Of a DNA stretch of 34,166 nucleotides, positions 25,185-31,928 are shown one piece after another; the first letter of the stretch is position 1; every line of letters begins with the position of its first letter. The position numbers and the translations under genes are program-made. Source of the stretch: a virus. The DNA lies in IMG/VR virus record IMGVR_UViG_3300027720_000312, positions 1 to 34,166 of that record, one strand, 5' to 3'. The notes beneath the pieces were generated by a model that was given only the letters and a program-made list of their open reading frames with translations, had not been told where the DNA came from and did no database searches.

Positions 25185-25405
25185 TGACTAAATATCTTGT
25201 AACTAAAACTTACCCTCTTCTCTGTTTCAATTACAAAGAGAACTCTCAAACTATTCTTCCTCTTTTCTCTGGAGACGTTCTCAATGTTTTCTCCAAGTCA
25301 AAAGACTTGTTCGATGAGGAATTAGAGTATTGGGACTTCACAAAAAATTGGTCTGCCAAAATTGATCAAGACGCGCTATCAGCATTAAAGGAAATACAGC
25401 CATGA
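25184..25405 (+). CDS. Small hypothetical protein
   Basis: A 73-residue protein beginning MTKYLVTKTYPLLCFNY. ATG at 25184 was chosen over an in-frame ATG at 25172 because it forms a TAATG overlap with the preceding stop, the pattern seen at other junctions here. The composition is acidic and aromatic (ELEYWDFTKNW). No family is recognised. Its stop overlaps the next ATG (ATGA). Confidence 0.58.
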   Translation: MTKYLVTKTYPLLCFNYKENSQTILPLFSGDVLNVFSKSKDLFDEELEYWDFTKNWSAKIDQDALSALKEIQP

Positions 25406-26055
25406 TGACATACGAAGAGCAAAAAGATATTTTATATTCCGAATTATCTAAAGTAAAGAAAGACTTTGAATCAATTTTGAAGAAAAAGATTTCTCGAAAA
25501 AACTTTGTAGAAGCTATTGTCGAAATGACCAAGTATGCAGTTAAAACAGATTTCGAGCAAAACTTTGACCAAGAGGCAAGAAACCGAGTCGCTAACTTTT
25601 TTGCTGTTTGCCAACCTTATCTTGGCGAAGTTGTCTGGTCTAAACTCGACAATAAGAATTTAAAAGTCTCTATTAACTATGGCGACAGCTCAATGGTTAG
25701 TTGGAACATTCCTGTTGAAACTTTCTTTATAGATCAAAATCAGTTTGACACTTCTATTGGTATGTTAATCAATAGTTTCAGAGATTGTTTTCTTGGTTTA
25801 TTCTTGTGTCCAGATTTACGCAAAGCTGTGTTAAATGGCGACAAAGAAGCTATCAAAGCTCTTTATTCATCGTTATCCAGACCTTCAATGGACTCTACCG
25901 TAGTTAATCTAAAGTTGTTTAAAGAATGTTTTCCTGATTTCTATGAGCATATTACCACTAAGCTCGACGTTATGAATTTAGAGGAAATGACAGATTTTAT
26001 TAAAAATAAAAATAAACAAGTAAAAAAGCCAGTTAAAAAGCGTAAAACTAAGTAA
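25402..26055 (+). CDS. Hypothetical protein
   Basis: A 217-residue protein of unknown family. The N-terminus is a charged helix (EEQKDILYSELSKVKKDF), the middle alternates strands and helices, and the C-terminus is a very basic Lys-rich tail (KNKNKQVKKPVKKRKTK) that could bind nucleic acid or be a flexible anchor. No enzymatic motif is seen. It overlaps the upstream gene by 4 bases, and its last base is the first base of the next ATG. Confidence 0.65.
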   Translation: MMTYEEQKDILYSELSKVKKDFESILKKKISRKNFVEAIVEMTKYAVKTDFEQNFDQEARNRVANFFAVCQPYLGEVVWSKLDNKNLKVSINYGDSSMVSWNIPVETFFIDQNQFDTSIGMLINSFRDCFLGLFLCPDLRKAVLNGDKEAIKALYSSLSRPSMDSTVVNLKLFKECFPDFYEHITTKLDVMNLEEMTDFIKNKNKQVKKPVKKRKTK

Positions 26056-26717
26056 TGCCATACTTAAATGCGAACATTCCTCTTTTTCACGCTTATTTAA
26101 AAAGCGACTTTCTTTATAATCATACCGAACACAAGAAAGAGTACGTCTCTTGTGAAGTTTTCGGCGTAACTTCTTTAACTCGCCGCTGTCTTGCTTTTCA
26201 GATAATGACAGAGTATGGCTCTAGGCACGATAGAGTTCCAATTCATTATTTAACTTTATCTCCAGAGCATACTGACTATCCTTTAGATTGGTTGCAGCTT
26301 TGGGATTGTTATTCAAATTCTTTATCAGTAACAAGATACGAATATCATAAAAACGCCTCAGTAGAGATACAGTTGAAAAATCACCAATGGGTTAAAGGCA
26401 AATACTTATTCACGATAGACTGGCACGATAATCCTGATGCTGCGTTTGGCTATTCTGAAATGGCTGGAGGACACAAATGCGGCCATCTTATTTGGGGTCT
26501 TGAAGACTCAACAGGTAAAGAATGTAATCAATTATTCTTTCAGCCAAATAACAGAGTAGTTTGGAGAGATGGAGGCGCTTTTATCGCTAAAAAATTAGAG
26601 AAGCCAGATTGGAAAGTCTTTGATAAAGAGTTCACTTGCGAAGGTAAAGGCAAGTGGGTCGCTTTGGATAACGAAGATTACTTTTATCAATTCAAAGAAG
26701 CTGATAAAAAAGTGTAA
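26055..26717 (+). CDS. Hypothetical phage protein
   Basis: A 220-residue protein that I cannot assign. It is rich in aromatic residues, His and Trp, with beta-rich segments such as KYLFTIDWHDNPDAAFGYS and a KCGHLIWGLED stretch. The compact, mixed composition suggests a soluble globular protein. It is the last clearly phage-type gene before the curli-like module, whose first gene starts 11 bases after its stop. I see no terminator in the gap, so read-through into the module is likely. Confidence 0.65.
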   Translation: MPYLNANIPLFHAYLKSDFLYNHTEHKKEYVSCEVFGVTSLTRRCLAFQIMTEYGSRHDRVPIHYLTLSPEHTDYPLDWLQLWDCYSNSLSVTRYEYHKNASVEIQLKNHQWVKGKYLFTIDWHDNPDAAFGYSEMAGGHKCGHLIWGLEDSTGKECNQLFFQPNNRVVWRDGGAFIAKKLEKPDWKVFDKEFTCEGKGKWVALDNEDYFYQFKEADKKV

Positions 26718-26728
26718 TAGTATGATAA

Positions 26729-27184
26729 GTGAAGAAGGCATTTTTTCTAATTTTATTTATTTTTATTTCCAGCTCGCATGGAAGTGAGATGGTGCATGGC
26801 TTCAAGTCTCCGATTTTCAACGGAGCTAACTTTTCTGGACACGTTCTTACCGTAGAGAACTTAGCGAGAACTCGTAAGCAAGCTGTTAAGGATAACTTAA
26901 GAGCTGATCTTGAACAACAAAAGATTCAATCTACAAATACTCCGCTTAATACTTTCATAAACAACTTACAGGCAAGAATTTATTCTCAATTAGCCTCACA
27001 AGTTACAGATCAGATTTTCAATTCAAATGGCGAAACGTTTGGTATTATTAATTTACAAGGTGGCGCAACAGTCACTTGGCAGAAGAATGGCGATTTAGTA
27101 ACGCTGTATATTAACGACCCCGCAACAGGAACTTCTACACAAATTCAGCTTCCTGTTGGAGTCCTCAGACCAGGAGGTGGATAA
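26729..27184 (+). CDS. csgF: CsgF-like curli assembly factor
   Basis: A 151-residue exported protein. The start is GTG at 26729; it gives a clean signal peptide (KK, then AFFLILFIFISSS), while the ATG at 26722 leads to a stop after about 20 codons in another frame. The mature start FKSPIFNG matches the CsgF N-terminus (E. coli FRNPNFGG), the part that inserts into the CsgG channel. Later features also fit: LNTFINNLQARIYSQLASQ (as in CsgF FTQAIQSQIL) and the closing LVTLYINDPATGTSTQIQLP (as in LNVTDRKTGQTSTIQV). Known role: it caps the CsgG pore outside and couples secretion to fibre nucleation. Followed 2 bases later by csgG. Confidence 0.9.
   Translation: MKKAFFLILFIFISSSHGSEMVHGFKSPIFNGANFSGHVLTVENLARTRKQAVKDNLRADLEQQKIQSTNTPLNTFINNLQARIYSQLASQVTDQIFNSNGETFGIINLQGGATVTWQKNGDLVTLYINDPATGTSTQIQLPVGVLRPGGG
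27172..27179 (+). promoter_or_regulatory. Strong ribosome-binding site of csgG
   Basis: AGGAGGTG at 27172-27179, 7 bases before the csgG ATG (27187), is a near-perfect anti-16S match. Most genes in this window lack any clear Shine-Dalgarno sequence. It lies inside the end of csgF, so it also encodes part of that protein's Gly-rich tail. It suggests CsgG is made at a high rate. Confidence 0.8.
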
Positions 27185-27186
27185 GG

Positions 27187-27981
27187 ATGAGATGGTTCAC
27201 TCCATTCTTACTTCTTTTCCTAGTAGGTTGTTCATCTTTTCCGCAAAAACCTGCTATATTAGAGAAGCCTAAGCTGCAAGCTCCACCTTTGGAGCAGCAG
27301 TTGCGTAATTTACCGCCTCCAGAGAGTGCTAGAATCAGCATTGCCGTCTATTCCTTCGTTGATAAGACTGGTCAACGTAAAACTGTAGATTCCTACGCCT
27401 CTTTCTCGTCCGCAGTCACACAAGGCGCGGAAAGCTGGGTTATAGACGCTTTGCGGATTGCTGGCAACGGTCAATGGTTTCAGGTGCTAGAGCGCACCAG
27501 TTTGGACAATATCATTAGAGAACGGCAGCTAATTAACCAAACAAGAGAAACCTTTCAAGGCAGAGACGCTGAGAAACTCACTCCTATGCTGTTCGCTGGC
27601 ATTATTGCAGAAGGCGGCATCATTGGCTACGACACCAATATAATTACTGGTGGAGCTGGCGCAAGCGTTCTTGGCATATCGTCTAGCACTCAATACCGCA
27701 AAGACGTTGTTACAGTATCGCTTCGTTTTGTTAGCGTACAAACAGGTGAGATATTACTTAGCGTAGCTGTAACTAAAACAATTTCTAGTGTCGCGGTTTC
27801 AGGTAATCTATTCAAGTTCTACGAGCACGGAGTAACTCCTGTGGAAGCTGAACTTGGATTAACTGCCAACGAACCAAATACAATAGCTGTTAGAAGTGCT
27901 ATTGAACAAGCAGTGATAGAGATAGTAGATCAAGGGCAGAAATCGGGATTCTGGAAATATAAAACCCCTCAAAAACAATGA
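27187..27981 (+). CDS. csgG: CsgG-like curli secretion channel lipoprotein
   Basis: A 264-residue protein (E. coli CsgG is 277). It has a lipoprotein signal ending LVGC (acylated Cys 15, with Ser at +2, so outer-membrane sorting). Family matches run through the length: ISIAVYSFVDKTGQ, WFQVLERTSLDNIIRERQLI, FAGIIAEGGIIGYDTN, TQYRKDVVTVSLRFVSVQTGEIL and GLTANEPNTIAVRSAIE. CsgG forms a nonameric outer-membrane pore that exports unfolded curlin. The loop lining the E. coli constriction (Y51, N55, F56) is altered here: F73 matches F56, Ser 72 replaces Asn55, and a one-residue insertion displaces the Tyr. It overlaps the curlin gene by 4 bases (ATGA). Confidence 0.95.
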   Translation: MRWFTPFLLLFLVGCSSFPQKPAILEKPKLQAPPLEQQLRNLPPPESARISIAVYSFVDKTGQRKTVDSYASFSSAVTQGAESWVIDALRIAGNGQWFQVLERTSLDNIIRERQLINQTRETFQGRDAEKLTPMLFAGIIAEGGIIGYDTNIITGGAGASVLGISSSTQYRKDVVTVSLRFVSVQTGEILLSVAVTKTISSVAVSGNLFKFYEHGVTPVEAELGLTANEPNTIAVRSAIEQAVIEIVDQGQKSGFWKYKTPQKQ

Positions 27982-28694
27982 AAATCAAACTATTAGCATT
28001 ATATGTATTTTTATCAGCCCTTTGCTTTGGGCAAAATCAAATCTACATCAACCAAATCACCACTACTGGTACAACAACTCTTGTTCAAACTGGTAGCGTT
28101 AATAAAATTGGTTCGTCTGGAGTTCCCAGCGAAATAACATCCGACAATCTCTCTTTCGAGATGAGACAAGTTGGAGACAATAACGAAGCTAACTTCTCTA
28201 TGATCGGCAACAACTTAACGCTTAAATCTATTACTACTGGTAATAGCAACAACTTAAAGATGTTCACGAATGGAGCAAATAACGATATTGACTTAACCTT
28301 TACTGGCAATTCAAATACATTCCTGCTCAATAAAGAGGCTATCGTTAACAGCGCCGACAAAGCTACCACTGTTGATGGCGATGTTAAATTCGTCGTTACT
28401 GGCAACAGTAATGTAATGAAAGTTGGAATTGATGATGGCAAATATAATAAACTAGATTATACCATCACTGGCTCCAGCAACACATTGACCACAACTCAAA
28501 AAAGTAATCCGAGCGGTAACGCTGCTGGTAGCGGTCATAGTCAAGTTGTAACTGTTTTAGGAAGCTCCAACACAATGAACTTCCAACAAGCAGGTATAGA
28601 AAAACAAACCTTGACCTACAATTTGACTGGCAGCTTCAATACAGTTTCTATTCAACAAGGTACAACTGCTGCTAATTTAACTCCTTTTCCATAA
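27978..28694 (+). CDS. Secreted curlin-repeat (CsgA/CsgB-like) protein
   Basis: A 238-residue protein with a Sec signal peptide (MKIKLLALYVFLSALCFG) and a mature part rich in Asn, Thr, Ser and Gly. About ten units of hydrophobic-x-hydrophobic, turn G-x-x-N, hydrophobic-x-hydrophobic occur, with turn glycines at 39, 66, 77, 88, 99, 110, 142, 165, 195 and 218. Five of them (66 to 110) are exactly 11 residues apart. This is half the approximately 22-residue curlin repeat, which has two strands per repeat. The usual curlin glutamines are only partly present (Q37, Q64, Q204, Q226/Q227). Position directly after csgF and csgG makes it the likely secreted substrate. It could also be an adhesin of CsgB type, or a silent copy. 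Confidence 0.82.
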   Translation: MKIKLLALYVFLSALCFGQNQIYINQITTTGTTTLVQTGSVNKIGSSGVPSEITSDNLSFEMRQVGDNNEANFSMIGNNLTLKSITTGNSNNLKMFTNGANNDIDLTFTGNSNTFLLNKEAIVNSADKATTVDGDVKFVVTGNSNVMKVGIDDGKYNKLDYTITGSSNTLTTTQKSNPSGNAAGSGHSQVVTVLGSSNTMNFQQAGIEKQTLTYNLTGSFNTVSIQQGTTAANLTPFP

Positions 28695-28695
28695 C

Positions 28696-29883
28696 TTGAG
28701 AATTGCCGTTATATTTTTATTAACGGCTTTATCTCTTTTTGGTTCATCTGGTAAAATAACAGAGGCTACTGGGCCAACTCAAATTACCAGAGATAAGGAT
28801 AAGATTGAGGGCAAAGCTAACGTTGGGATTGAGATGTTCGACACAATCGAAACACTTCAATCTCGCGTTGACATTTCCTTTGTGGACGACACAAGAGTTC
28901 AGATTACAGAGTTCTCTAAACTTAAGATTGATGAATTCGTTTATGATCCATCAAGCGGCAAAGGCTCTTTATCTATCAAAGCCGCATCAGGAACCATTAG
29001 ATATACTTCTGGATTAATCTCCAAAAATAGTAGAGAAAACGTAAAGATCAAAACTCCAACCGCTGTTGTGTCAGTAAGAGGAACTGACTTTTCTATGAGC
29101 GTCGGAGAAGATGGCAAAAGTTTAATTGTTCTTTTGCCGTCTCTTCCAGCGTTAACTGGCTCGTCTCCAGTGGTAGGCTCCATCGAAGTTACAAATGCGA
29201 GCGGAACAGTAGTGTTAAATCAAGCGTATCAAGCAACGTTCGTCTCCTCTGCTTTCTCTAATCCAACATCACCAGTTATTCTTGATTTAATTGACGAATC
29301 AAAGATCAATAATAATCTTCTTGTAGAGAGTAGTAAATCTATTACGAAGAATAGCAAAGAAACAAAAAAAGTTTCATCTGAAAAAGATAAAGTCGAAGAC
29401 AAGAAAGAAGACAAATCAAATAAGAAAACTGGAGATACTAAAACTCAAGTCGCGCAACAAACTGCTGCTGAATCAGTAGTAGAAGCCGCAAGCACAACAA
29501 CAGATGCCCCGCCTCCAGCTAAACAAGAAATAGAAGTTGCCCAAATAAAACTGGATACTAAAGTAGAAGCTCCAACAGTTGAAGCTCCAAAAGTTGAAGC
29601 TCCTGCAACTGTGACAAATATCGCGGCAGTTCAAGAAGTTCCTAAAGTTATAGTTCCTTCGATCACGAATCCAATTCAGGCAAATAATATAACATCAGGA
29701 ACAACTACCGTTAACAACGGATTCACTACTGATGGAAAGTATGCTTCATTATCTCTATCTACTGACAAAGGTGTAATCAGATTTACTACCAAATACGACG
29801 CTAACTCTACCATTACCGTTAATGGTCAAGCTTACGTTTTAAACTACGGTGAAAAAAGTAAAGTTTACATTACTCAGAGATGA
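28696..29883 (+). CDS. Exported FecR-domain protein
   Basis: A 395-residue protein with a TTG start at 28696, one base after the curlin stop. This start restores a signal peptide (RIAVIFLLTALSLFGSSG); the first in-frame ATG, at 28834, would cut into the domain. The FecR domain covers about 35-150: TIETLQSRVDISFVDDT, LKIDEFVYDPSSGKGSLSIKAASGTIRY and KTPTAVVSVRGTDFSM are its hallmarks. Next comes a charged Lys/Glu/Ser linker (about 210-260) with a VEAP repeat (about 290-304). The last 60 residues form a second small beta domain (LSTDKGVIRFTTKYDANSTITVNG). FecR domains sit in the periplasm and often act as signal modules. Here no sigma factor is adjacent; a cyclase is. Confidence 0.88.
   Translation: MRIAVIFLLTALSLFGSSGKITEATGPTQITRDKDKIEGKANVGIEMFDTIETLQSRVDISFVDDTRVQITEFSKLKIDEFVYDPSSGKGSLSIKAASGTIRYTSGLISKNSRENVKIKTPTAVVSVRGTDFSMSVGEDGKSLIVLLPSLPALTGSSPVVGSIEVTNASGTVVLNQAYQATFVSSAFSNPTSPVILDLIDESKINNNLLVESSKSITKNSKETKKVSSEKDKVEDKKEDKSNKKTGDTKTQVAQQTAAESVVEAASTTTDAPPPAKQEIEVAQIKLDTKVEAPTVEAPKVEAPATVTNIAAVQEVPKVIVPSITNPIQANNITSGTTTVNNGFTTDGKYASLSLSTDKGVIRFTTKYDANSTITVNGQAYVLNYGEKSKVYITQR
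29563..29607 (+). repeat. Three 15-base tandem repeats (VEAP linker)
   Basis: Three tandem copies of GTTGAAGCTCCAAAA-type units (29563-29577, 29578-29592, 29593-29607), encoding VEAPT, VEAPK and VEAPA in the linker of the FecR-domain protein. They are similar enough that replication slippage could change the copy number. Confidence 0.8.
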
Positions 29884-31928
29884 AGAAATATAAAATCTAT
29901 ACTGCAATAGCTTCGCTGTTAGTTTTGATTTGTTTAGTAGCTTTAAGAGTTAAAGACCCATTTTTCGTTGAGACTGCAAGACTAAAAACACTAGACTACT
30001 ATCAAATCACTCAAGAGAAAGTGAAAAGCGAAAGTGTTGTAGTTGTTGAGATAGACGAGAAAACTCTTGAGAAGCATGGTCAATGGCCTTTCCCAAGACA
30101 AATCTTAGCTAACGCAATAACAAAAGCTTTTGATAACGGCGCAGAGATTGTTGTGTTGCCAATTATTTTTGCTGAGAGCGACAGATTCAATGGAGACGCC
30201 GCACTAAAAGAAACTTTCGGCAAATATCCTGTAATCATTAGTCAGTCTGCGGCAAATAAAGGAAAAGGCTCGCCTGTGCCTAGAGGAGTATCAGTAATCG
30301 GCGGCGGCATAGATGAGTGGCTATTTGATTATCCTGCGGCGATTGGGCCAACGAAAGAGCTTGGCGAAGCTGCGGCTGGCGTTGGTATGTTGCTAACGGC
30401 TCCAGAAGTTGACGGCGTAGTTAGAAGATTACCGCTTATCGTTCAAATAAACAAAGAACTTTATCCTACTTTGCCATTAGAAATCTTGCGCGTAGTTTCT
30501 AATGATCCAAGCTATCAGGCAAAAGTTAATCAAGCTGGCGTAACCGCAATTCGTATTCCCAAATTTAAAACAATTAAAACTGACGAGAATGGGCGCGTTT
30601 GGTTAAATTTCAAATACACTTTCGATTCTTTTTCGTTTACCAAAGAAGATTGGTCTGAGGTTAAAGGTAAGATCGTTATGATCGCGCCAACAGCAGAAGG
30701 TCTTTCAAACACTGTTGCAACATCAGTGAACATTAAGAATGGTTACGAAATTCCTTTGTTTGCCGCACAAATGCTTTTAGATGATTCAAGATTAGAAAGA
30801 CCATCAGAGTTTAACACTTACGAGATTCTTTATGGTTTAGTCGCGGCGTTAGTTGTTATCGTCGCTTTCATTTGGTTGAACTACTTAGTTTGCGCTGGAC
30901 TATCTATCGTTTTGATGATCGCGCCTGTGGTGTATGGTGTCAAAGCATTCAGTAATGGGCTGCTCTTTGATTACAGTTGGATAGTTGCCGCTCTTTTCAT
31001 CTGCTTTTCTGTGTCTGCGTTCATGCGTTTCATCAATGAATTTAAACAGAAACAACAAATCAGAAAGCAGTTTGAACATTATCTTGCTCCTGCAATGGTC
31101 AAGAAGCTGCAATCTAATCCAGAGCTTTTAAAACTTGGCGGCGAAACCAAAGACTTGACGATCTTATTCTCTGATGTTCGGGGATTTACAGCACTTAGCG
31201 AGCACTTTAAAACTGACCCACAAGGTTTAACTTCTTTAATAAACCGTTACATGACTCCTATGCTGAAATTAGTTATGAGCAAAGACGGAACTGTTGATAA
31301 ACTGATTGGCGACGCAGTAATGGCTTTCTGGAATGCTCCTGTTAACGTTGCTCGCCACAAAGAATTAGCTATCGAGTGTGCCGTTGAGATGTTCACGAAA
31401 CTTGATGAGCTAAATAAACAACTTGCATTGGAAAAATTACCGCAACTTTCGATTGGCGTAGGAGTCAATTCTGGTTCAGTTGTGGTTGGAAACATGGGTT
31501 CCGAAAATCGCTTTGACTATACTTGCCTTGGAGACGCTGTTAATCTTTCGTCGCGTTTAGAAGGCCAAAGCAAGCCTTATCACGTTGAAATTGTTATCGG
31601 CGAGCAAACCGTGAAAGGCATCGAGAACTCTTTTAATTTCTTAGAGCTAGACAACATCGCTGTCAAAGGCAAAAAAGAAGGCGTTAAGATTTATACCGTA
31701 ATCACGAACGACGAGAAGGCAAATAAAATTGTTTCTCATCACAAGAAGATGATGGATTTCTACTACGAGATGAACTGGCAAGAAGCGGAAATCTATTTGG
31801 CTAGACTAAAAGCGGAAAACTCAAAGATGATAAAGTATTACGAGATGATGGAAAGCCGAATTTTTGAACTCAAAACCGCAAACTTGCCTAAAGATTGGGA
31901 TGGCGTTTATCACGCAACTAGCAAGTAA
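29880..31928 (+). CDS. CHASE2-domain transmembrane adenylate cyclase
   Basis: A 682-residue sensor enzyme. Domain order: a first membrane helix (about 8-23), a periplasmic CHASE2 domain (about 24-305, including VVVVEIDEKTLEKHGQWPFPR), three membrane helices (about 314-390), a short linker and a class III cyclase domain (about 420-605). The catalytic set is complete: metal aspartates D432 (FSDVRGF) and D478 (IGDAVMAF), specificity residues K474 and T548 (Lys/Thr pairing suggests ATP, so cAMP), and transition-state residues N555 and R559 (VNLSSR). A roughly 75-residue C-terminal helical extension follows. ATGA overlap with the FecR gene implies co-translation. It probably senses an outer or periplasmic signal and raises cAMP. 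Its stop abuts the convergent gene. Confidence 0.95.
   Translation: MKKYKIYTAIASLLVLICLVALRVKDPFFVETARLKTLDYYQITQEKVKSESVVVVEIDEKTLEKHGQWPFPRQILANAITKAFDNGAEIVVLPIIFAESDRFNGDAALKETFGKYPVIISQSAANKGKGSPVPRGVSVIGGGIDEWLFDYPAAIGPTKELGEAAAGVGMLLTAPEVDGVVRRLPLIVQINKELYPTLPLEILRVVSNDPSYQAKVNQAGVTAIRIPKFKTIKTDENGRVWLNFKYTFDSFSFTKEDWSEVKGKIVMIAPTAEGLSNTVATSVNIKNGYEIPLFAAQMLLDDSRLERPSEFNTYEILYGLVAALVVIVAFIWLNYLVCAGLSIVLMIAPVVYGVKAFSNGLLFDYSWIVAALFICFSVSAFMRFINEFKQKQQIRKQFEHYLAPAMVKKLQSNPELLKLGGETKDLTILFSDVRGFTALSEHFKTDPQGLTSLINRYMTPMLKLVMSKDGTVDKLIGDAVMAFWNAPVNVARHKELAIECAVEMFTKLDELNKQLALEKLPQLSIGVGVNSGSVVVGNMGSENRFDYTCLGDAVNLSSRLEGQSKPYHVEIVIGEQTVKGIENSFNFLELDNIAVKGKKEGVKIYTVITNDEKANKIVSHHKKMMDFYYEMNWQEAEIYLARLKAENSKMIKYYEMMESRIFELKTANLPKDWDGVYHATSK

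Follow-up and report, generated by a model that had tools for sequence, protein, structure and literature searches.

The FecR-domain protein and the CHASE2 nucleotide cyclase encoded by the viral record IMGVR_UViG_3300027720_000312 (34,166 nucleotides, hereafter the window) are the final two genes of a five-gene cassette with the order csgF-csgG-curlin-FecR-cyclase, and we give about an even chance to the explanation that this is a phage curli cassette with its own signalling branch, which would read the state of the fibre or of its export and raise cAMP in the host. The curli-FecR-cyclase module has already been described in other aquatic phages and its presence in the window is not new; the window adds a member from a lineage whose tail differs (lambda-type, with no sheath found). 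The new results of the present analysis are as follows: conservation is highest in the catalytic domain of the cyclase; in other phages, a variant catalytic domain has been exchanged between CHASE2 sensors; and the FecR-CHASE2-cyclase unit also accompanies type I secretion and cadherin-adhesin genes in Alphaproteobacteria and in many marine phage contigs.

The viral origin of the 34 kb fragment follows from its genes for a lambda-type tail, a ribonucleotide reductase (RNR) and a ClpA-type AAA (AAA/Clp) protein, in agreement with a preliminary description that had placed the pair in a phage, beside a curli pore. Neither the window nor related contigs of up to 69 kb yielded a tail sheath gene; such a gene is present in the T4-like relatives that bear the curli cassette. 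The tail and helicase genes of the window were uninformative for host inference, and at the gathering threshold the window contained no riboswitch or other known RNA of the sort that has been reported from the phage Melnitz.

All five cassette genes lie on the plus strand and are contiguous or overlapping. The first, csgF (26729-27184; PF10614, E 7.6e-17), encodes the curli extracellular assembly factor and is followed by csgG (27187-27981; PF03783, E 5.5e-50), encoding the outer-membrane curli pore, whose lipoprotein signal contains a Gly14-Cys15 pair that is invariant across 8 phage CsgG proteins. The third gene (27978-28694), which overlaps csgG, looks like a curlin by its repeats, predicted structure and position: the protein has a signal peptide and repeats with 10 GxxN motifs compared to 2.8 in shuffled sequences (0 of 2000 shuffles had as many), and its predicted structure is repetitive and all-beta (mean pLDDT 80). 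It has no Pfam match of its own, and a fold search of the model against the PDB gave no convincing match. The two genes before csgF (25402-26717) have no Pfam match either, so that no histidine kinase was recognised upstream. The gene directly 5' of csgF (26055-26717) belongs to PHROG 3704, labelled "ferredoxin" in PHROGs, and is conserved in window-type phages only. Near the cassette of a close relative of the window phage lie the lysis-inhibition genes RIIA and RIIB (L143:8322-11601).

The FecR gene (28696-29883, plus strand) has a TTG start, encodes 395 aa and shares its terminal ATGA with the start of the cyclase gene (29880-31928, plus strand, 682 aa), an overlap that the preliminary description had given correctly. 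Its product begins with a hydrophobic, signal-peptide-like segment and has no later transmembrane (TM) segment, from which it is probably exported, as had been proposed; the FecR domain (residues 49-143, at 28840-29124; PF04773, E 9e-11) is followed by a disordered linker and a C-terminal beta region. In the structural model, which is confident over approximately residues 21-200 and disordered in the linker (205-329), the FecR domain resembles PDB entries 4m0n, 6ovk (PupR) and 5ix9 (from a giant adhesin, its cell-surface anchoring domain), the modelled fold matching periplasmic sensor domains of anti-sigma proteins as well as that anchoring domain. Homology of the protein's tail to curlin had been suspected from its last residues, and profile comparison was negative. 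No sigma factor had been noticed nearby, and indeed ECF-type sigma-70 region 4 (PF08281) had no match in the window or in the related records G003 and G014, and none above the cut-off in five other cassette-bearing records (8 records in all, two of them complete genomes). The earlier reading of this absence as an oddity is not supported, since FecR beside CHASE2 is an arrangement already known in bacteria (PMC9239204, PMC5192318, PMC5498481); a missing sigma factor is thus expected and needs no explanation.

The cyclase matches the layout of its class, with an N-terminal TM segment (residues 6-24), a CHASE2 sensor domain that is predicted from hydropathy to be periplasmic (residues 16-326, at 29925-30857; PF05226, E 7e-39), more TM segments and a class III catalytic domain (residues 423-607, at 31146-31700; PF00211, E 4e-24); the Pfam matches for FecR, CHASE2 and the class III cyclase are all above curated cut-offs. 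The set of catalytic residues is complete (6/6), with both metal aspartates (D432, D478), the Lys/Thr pair (K474, T548) and N555/R559 retained as previously noted, and the closest solved sequences to the catalytic domain are class III cyclases, e.g., CyaB (3r5g). The ratio dN/dS is 0.056 for the whole cyclase, 0.048 for CHASE2, 0.062 for csgG and about 0.014 (mean, window group) for the catalytic domain; as this last value lies below those of CHASE2 and csgG, the cyclase is evidently maintained. The low dN/dS of the cyclase, together with the recurrence of the gene order in related contigs, also indicates that both open reading frames are real genes.

About 20 related viral contigs carry the five genes in this order, with identities of roughly 87-97% or 50-77%. 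Among csgG-bearing viral contigs, FecR was present in 55 of 55 and the CHASE2 cyclase, nearly always as the last gene, in 53 of 55, in a sample drawn from the 80 best csgG matches in IMG/VR, counted only if at least 4.5 kb was visible downstream, and biased towards relatives of the window. A module of CsgF, CsgG, CsgA/B, FecR and adenylate cyclase has been reported from podovirus and myovirus pelagiphages (PMC9599517, published in 2022), with a suggested origin in Alphaproteobacteria and, always in the podoviruses, a preceding histidine kinase; "sibling capture" has also been proposed (PMC7029224). Cultured examples with the cassette gene set annotated are the genomes of HTVC008M and Melnitz, and for the latter phage, with which no aggregation was seen, a role in lysis has been proposed (PMC9004378). 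The order of the pelagiphage type VIII secretion (T8SS) module is the same as that of the window, but the window combines it with a lambda-type tail for which no sheath was found, has no recognised histidine kinase before csgF, and has a single curlin gene and a direct overlap of FecR and cyclase. Canonical enterobacterial curli operons have csgG, csgF and curlin in common with the window, whereas Pfam matches to csgE and csgD are absent among the window's cassette genes and the scanned neighbours. In HTVC008M, the "hypothetical protein" gp018 (L044:7646-8971) encoded between FecR and the cyclase comprises a PA14 domain joined to curlin repeats, and is a possible fibre-tip adhesin.

In bacteria, FecR-domain proteins beside CHASE2 class III cyclases are found in Campylobacterota cyclase clusters (PMC9239204) and in the CyaD1 region of S. 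meliloti (PMC5498481), as in the window, although these clusters have no curli genes and the bacteria have phosphodiesterase, TPR or CRP partners. The Burkholderia BiofilmReg operon, which is needed for biofilm (PMC5192318), likewise has a periplasmic FecR-domain protein adjoining a CHASE2 receptor, but there CHASE2 sits on a histidine kinase and the FecR protein has LysM. FecR was encoded within the fetched flanks of 28 of 80 genome loci with cyclase relatives, two of which (L059, L085) look like phage contigs in metagenome-assembled genomes (MAGs), and no FecR-CHASE2 fusion protein was found among the 80. Across 30 bacterial genomes, FecR occurred within about 9 kb of 13 CHASE2-cyclase loci, compared to 0.39 expected; csgG was above the cut-off in 6 of these genomes and near the cyclase in none, so it is not what links FecR and CHASE2 there. 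The co-occurrence of FecR, cyclase and csgG that the preliminary description had suggested surveying is strongly borne out in phages, and in bacteria for FecR and the cyclase but not for csgG.

A second kind of exporter accompanies the pair elsewhere. In 14 of the 80 genome loci, including the phage-like L049, the cyclase gene is next to genes of a type I secretion system (T1SS). In alphaproteobacterial T1SS adhesin operons (L051, L054, L069 and L070; Rhizobiales), a FecR-bearing RTX/cadherin-type adhesin is followed by PrtD, HlyD and then the cyclase; a surface protein, an exporter, a FecR domain and a CHASE2 cyclase thus share one operon, as in the window, but with a type I exporter and an RTX/cadherin adhesin, to which FecR is fused, instead of curli. 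A second cassette, from marine phage contigs, is represented on a contig with myovirus baseplate-type genes that was binned in a MAG (L049:3-7718; L228:5210-14827); its genes encode, in order, a FecR-cadherin adhesin of 1000-1317 aa, a TolC-like protein, an ABC membrane protein (about 250 aa) that lacks an ATPase domain, a short HlyD of about 240 aa and the CHASE2 cyclase, with no csgG. Of 80 IMG/VR loci retrieved with the L049/L228 cyclase, about 35 encode TolC-like, ABC-membrane and/or HlyD proteins immediately before their own cyclase, and in those that show enough of the upstream region the operon begins with the FecR-cadherin adhesin; further loci with this cassette are L230, L235, L242, L247, L254, L257, L262, L269, L270, L275 and others of L229-L308. 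No paper describing it was found in the literature searched, which does not prove that it is unreported.

Other viral loci hold different combinations of these genes. In a third arrangement (L231, L294, L305, L306 and L308), a long CsgG of about 414-425 aa is encoded on the strand opposite to a shorter cyclase of about 550 aa, as is, where visible, a FecR protein; in L231 and L294 this arrangement adjoins another CHASE2 cyclase, in L231 together with T1SS-like genes. Sixteen viral contigs (L027-L042) encode another class III cyclase, mostly of 479-482 aa and without CHASE2, with neither csgG nor FecR in view; L029 shows a weak Cache-like match.

The evidence for domain exchange concerns cyclases with the substitutions T548D and N555S, which are carried by 19 of the 55 distinct cyclases from phage cassettes and by two MAG-binned cyclases, and by none of the 76 from bacteria; phage cyclases of this type include L043, L059, L085, L153, L173, L182, L188, L192 and others. 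The variant forms one clade (support 100) in the catalytic-domain tree, whereas four changes are required to explain it on the CHASE2 tree, where a forced single clade is rejected at p about 1e-7; both trees are quick and have long branches, so that exact swap counts are uncertain. The exchange is directly visible in L153, whose CHASE2 is at 62% to the window but whose catalytic domain is closer to that of Melnitz (56%), which is of the variant type, than to that of the window (43%). The variant is under purifying selection and by that measure is not a dead enzyme. The preliminary expectation that the cyclase should make cAMP is retained as a prediction for the window lineage, in which the active site is complete, but it does not extend to all siblings, as the T548D/N555S type may not produce cAMP.

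Common to the curli and T1SS settings is the theme of surface protein, exporter, FecR and CHASE2. It is possible, though we would put it somewhat short of evens, that FecR and the CHASE2 cyclase make up a signalling unit for "surface-protein export" in general. Phages would have acquired this unit on two or more occasions, in one case together with curli (type VIII) and in another with a type I exporter and a cadherin adhesin fused to FecR, and its output domain would have been swapped between sensors, including the T548D/N555S type of perhaps different activity; the window would be one member.

In the explanation that we favour for the window, the five genes would constitute a curli (type VIII secretion) cassette carried by the phage, together with a signalling branch of its own. 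CsgG and CsgF would form the outer-membrane pore, and the fibre subunit that is exported would be the curlin-like protein. FecR, exported to the periplasm or cell surface, probably serves as an anchor or adaptor that links the fibre or its export site to CHASE2, a role suggested by the likenesses of its model and by the T1SS proteins in which FecR is the N-terminal part of an adhesin. An altered state of FecR or the fibre would then switch the cytoplasmic cyclase domain of the inner-membrane protein, and cAMP would rise, in line with the sensing of fibre or envelope state suggested in the preliminary description. As 19 phage records contained no gene for a cNMP-binding protein or CRP-type receptor, the cAMP would have to work through a receptor of the host. 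Signalling from the outer membrane to the cyclase fits with S. meliloti, where CHASE2 cyclases respond through the outer-membrane barrel NsrA (PMC13001267), but the FecR neighbour SMc02177 in that species is dispensable for plant-signal perception (PMC5498481), an observation that does not fit. Gene order, domains, the complete active site, purifying selection and the near-constant linkage in phages speak for this explanation, as do the excess of FecR near CHASE2 cyclases in bacteria, the T1SS operons and the Burkholderia biofilm operon; the lack of aggregation with Melnitz, the T548D/N555S type and the missing excess of CRP-like sites speak against it.

Alternatively, the cyclase could raise host cAMP for general takeover, being co-transcribed with the fibre genes and not reading them, while CHASE2 senses another envelope or environmental cue. 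The strong constraint on the catalytic domain and its swapping behind different CHASE2 sensors suggest that the output matters by itself, but we consider this unlikely because the cyclase is almost always linked to FecR and to genes for surface export, of two unrelated secretion types, which points to an input tied to export. We judge it improbable that the CsgG/CsgF pore is a lysis-timing device, gated or timed by FecR and the cyclase: Melnitz, for which lysis was proposed (PMC9004378), has the same cassette, and RIIA/RIIB lie in the cassette's contig region in the relative G003, but the cassette retains a curlin-like subunit, and the FecR-cyclase pairs that accompany a type I adhesin exporter without csgG in other phages would be left unexplained. 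We place equally little weight on cAMP switching the fibre genes on via host CRP, like csgD in enterobacteria, as put forward in PMC9599517; overlaps and order suggest one transcription unit for the cyclase and fibre genes, yet CRP-like sites are not in excess in the window (11 found, 17 expected) and the 19 phage records contain no CRP. An anti-sigma role for FecR, as in classical regulators of the iron-citrate type, with its sigma factor elsewhere, is hardly credible, for although its periplasmic fold resembles that of PupR and other FecR-family proteins, PF04773 is its sole Pfam match, its start is signal-like with no cytoplasmic anti-sigma part before a TM segment, and no ECF-type sigma region 4 rose above the cut-off in the 8 records.

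What merits following is the exchange of cyclase domains and the broader pattern of FecR, CHASE2 and exporter. The association of FecR and CHASE2 with two export systems turns what CHASE2 senses into a testable question. If the cyclase is active, these abundant aquatic phages would be producing a surface fibre in the cell they infect and connecting it to second-messenger signalling, a form of host control of which little is known.
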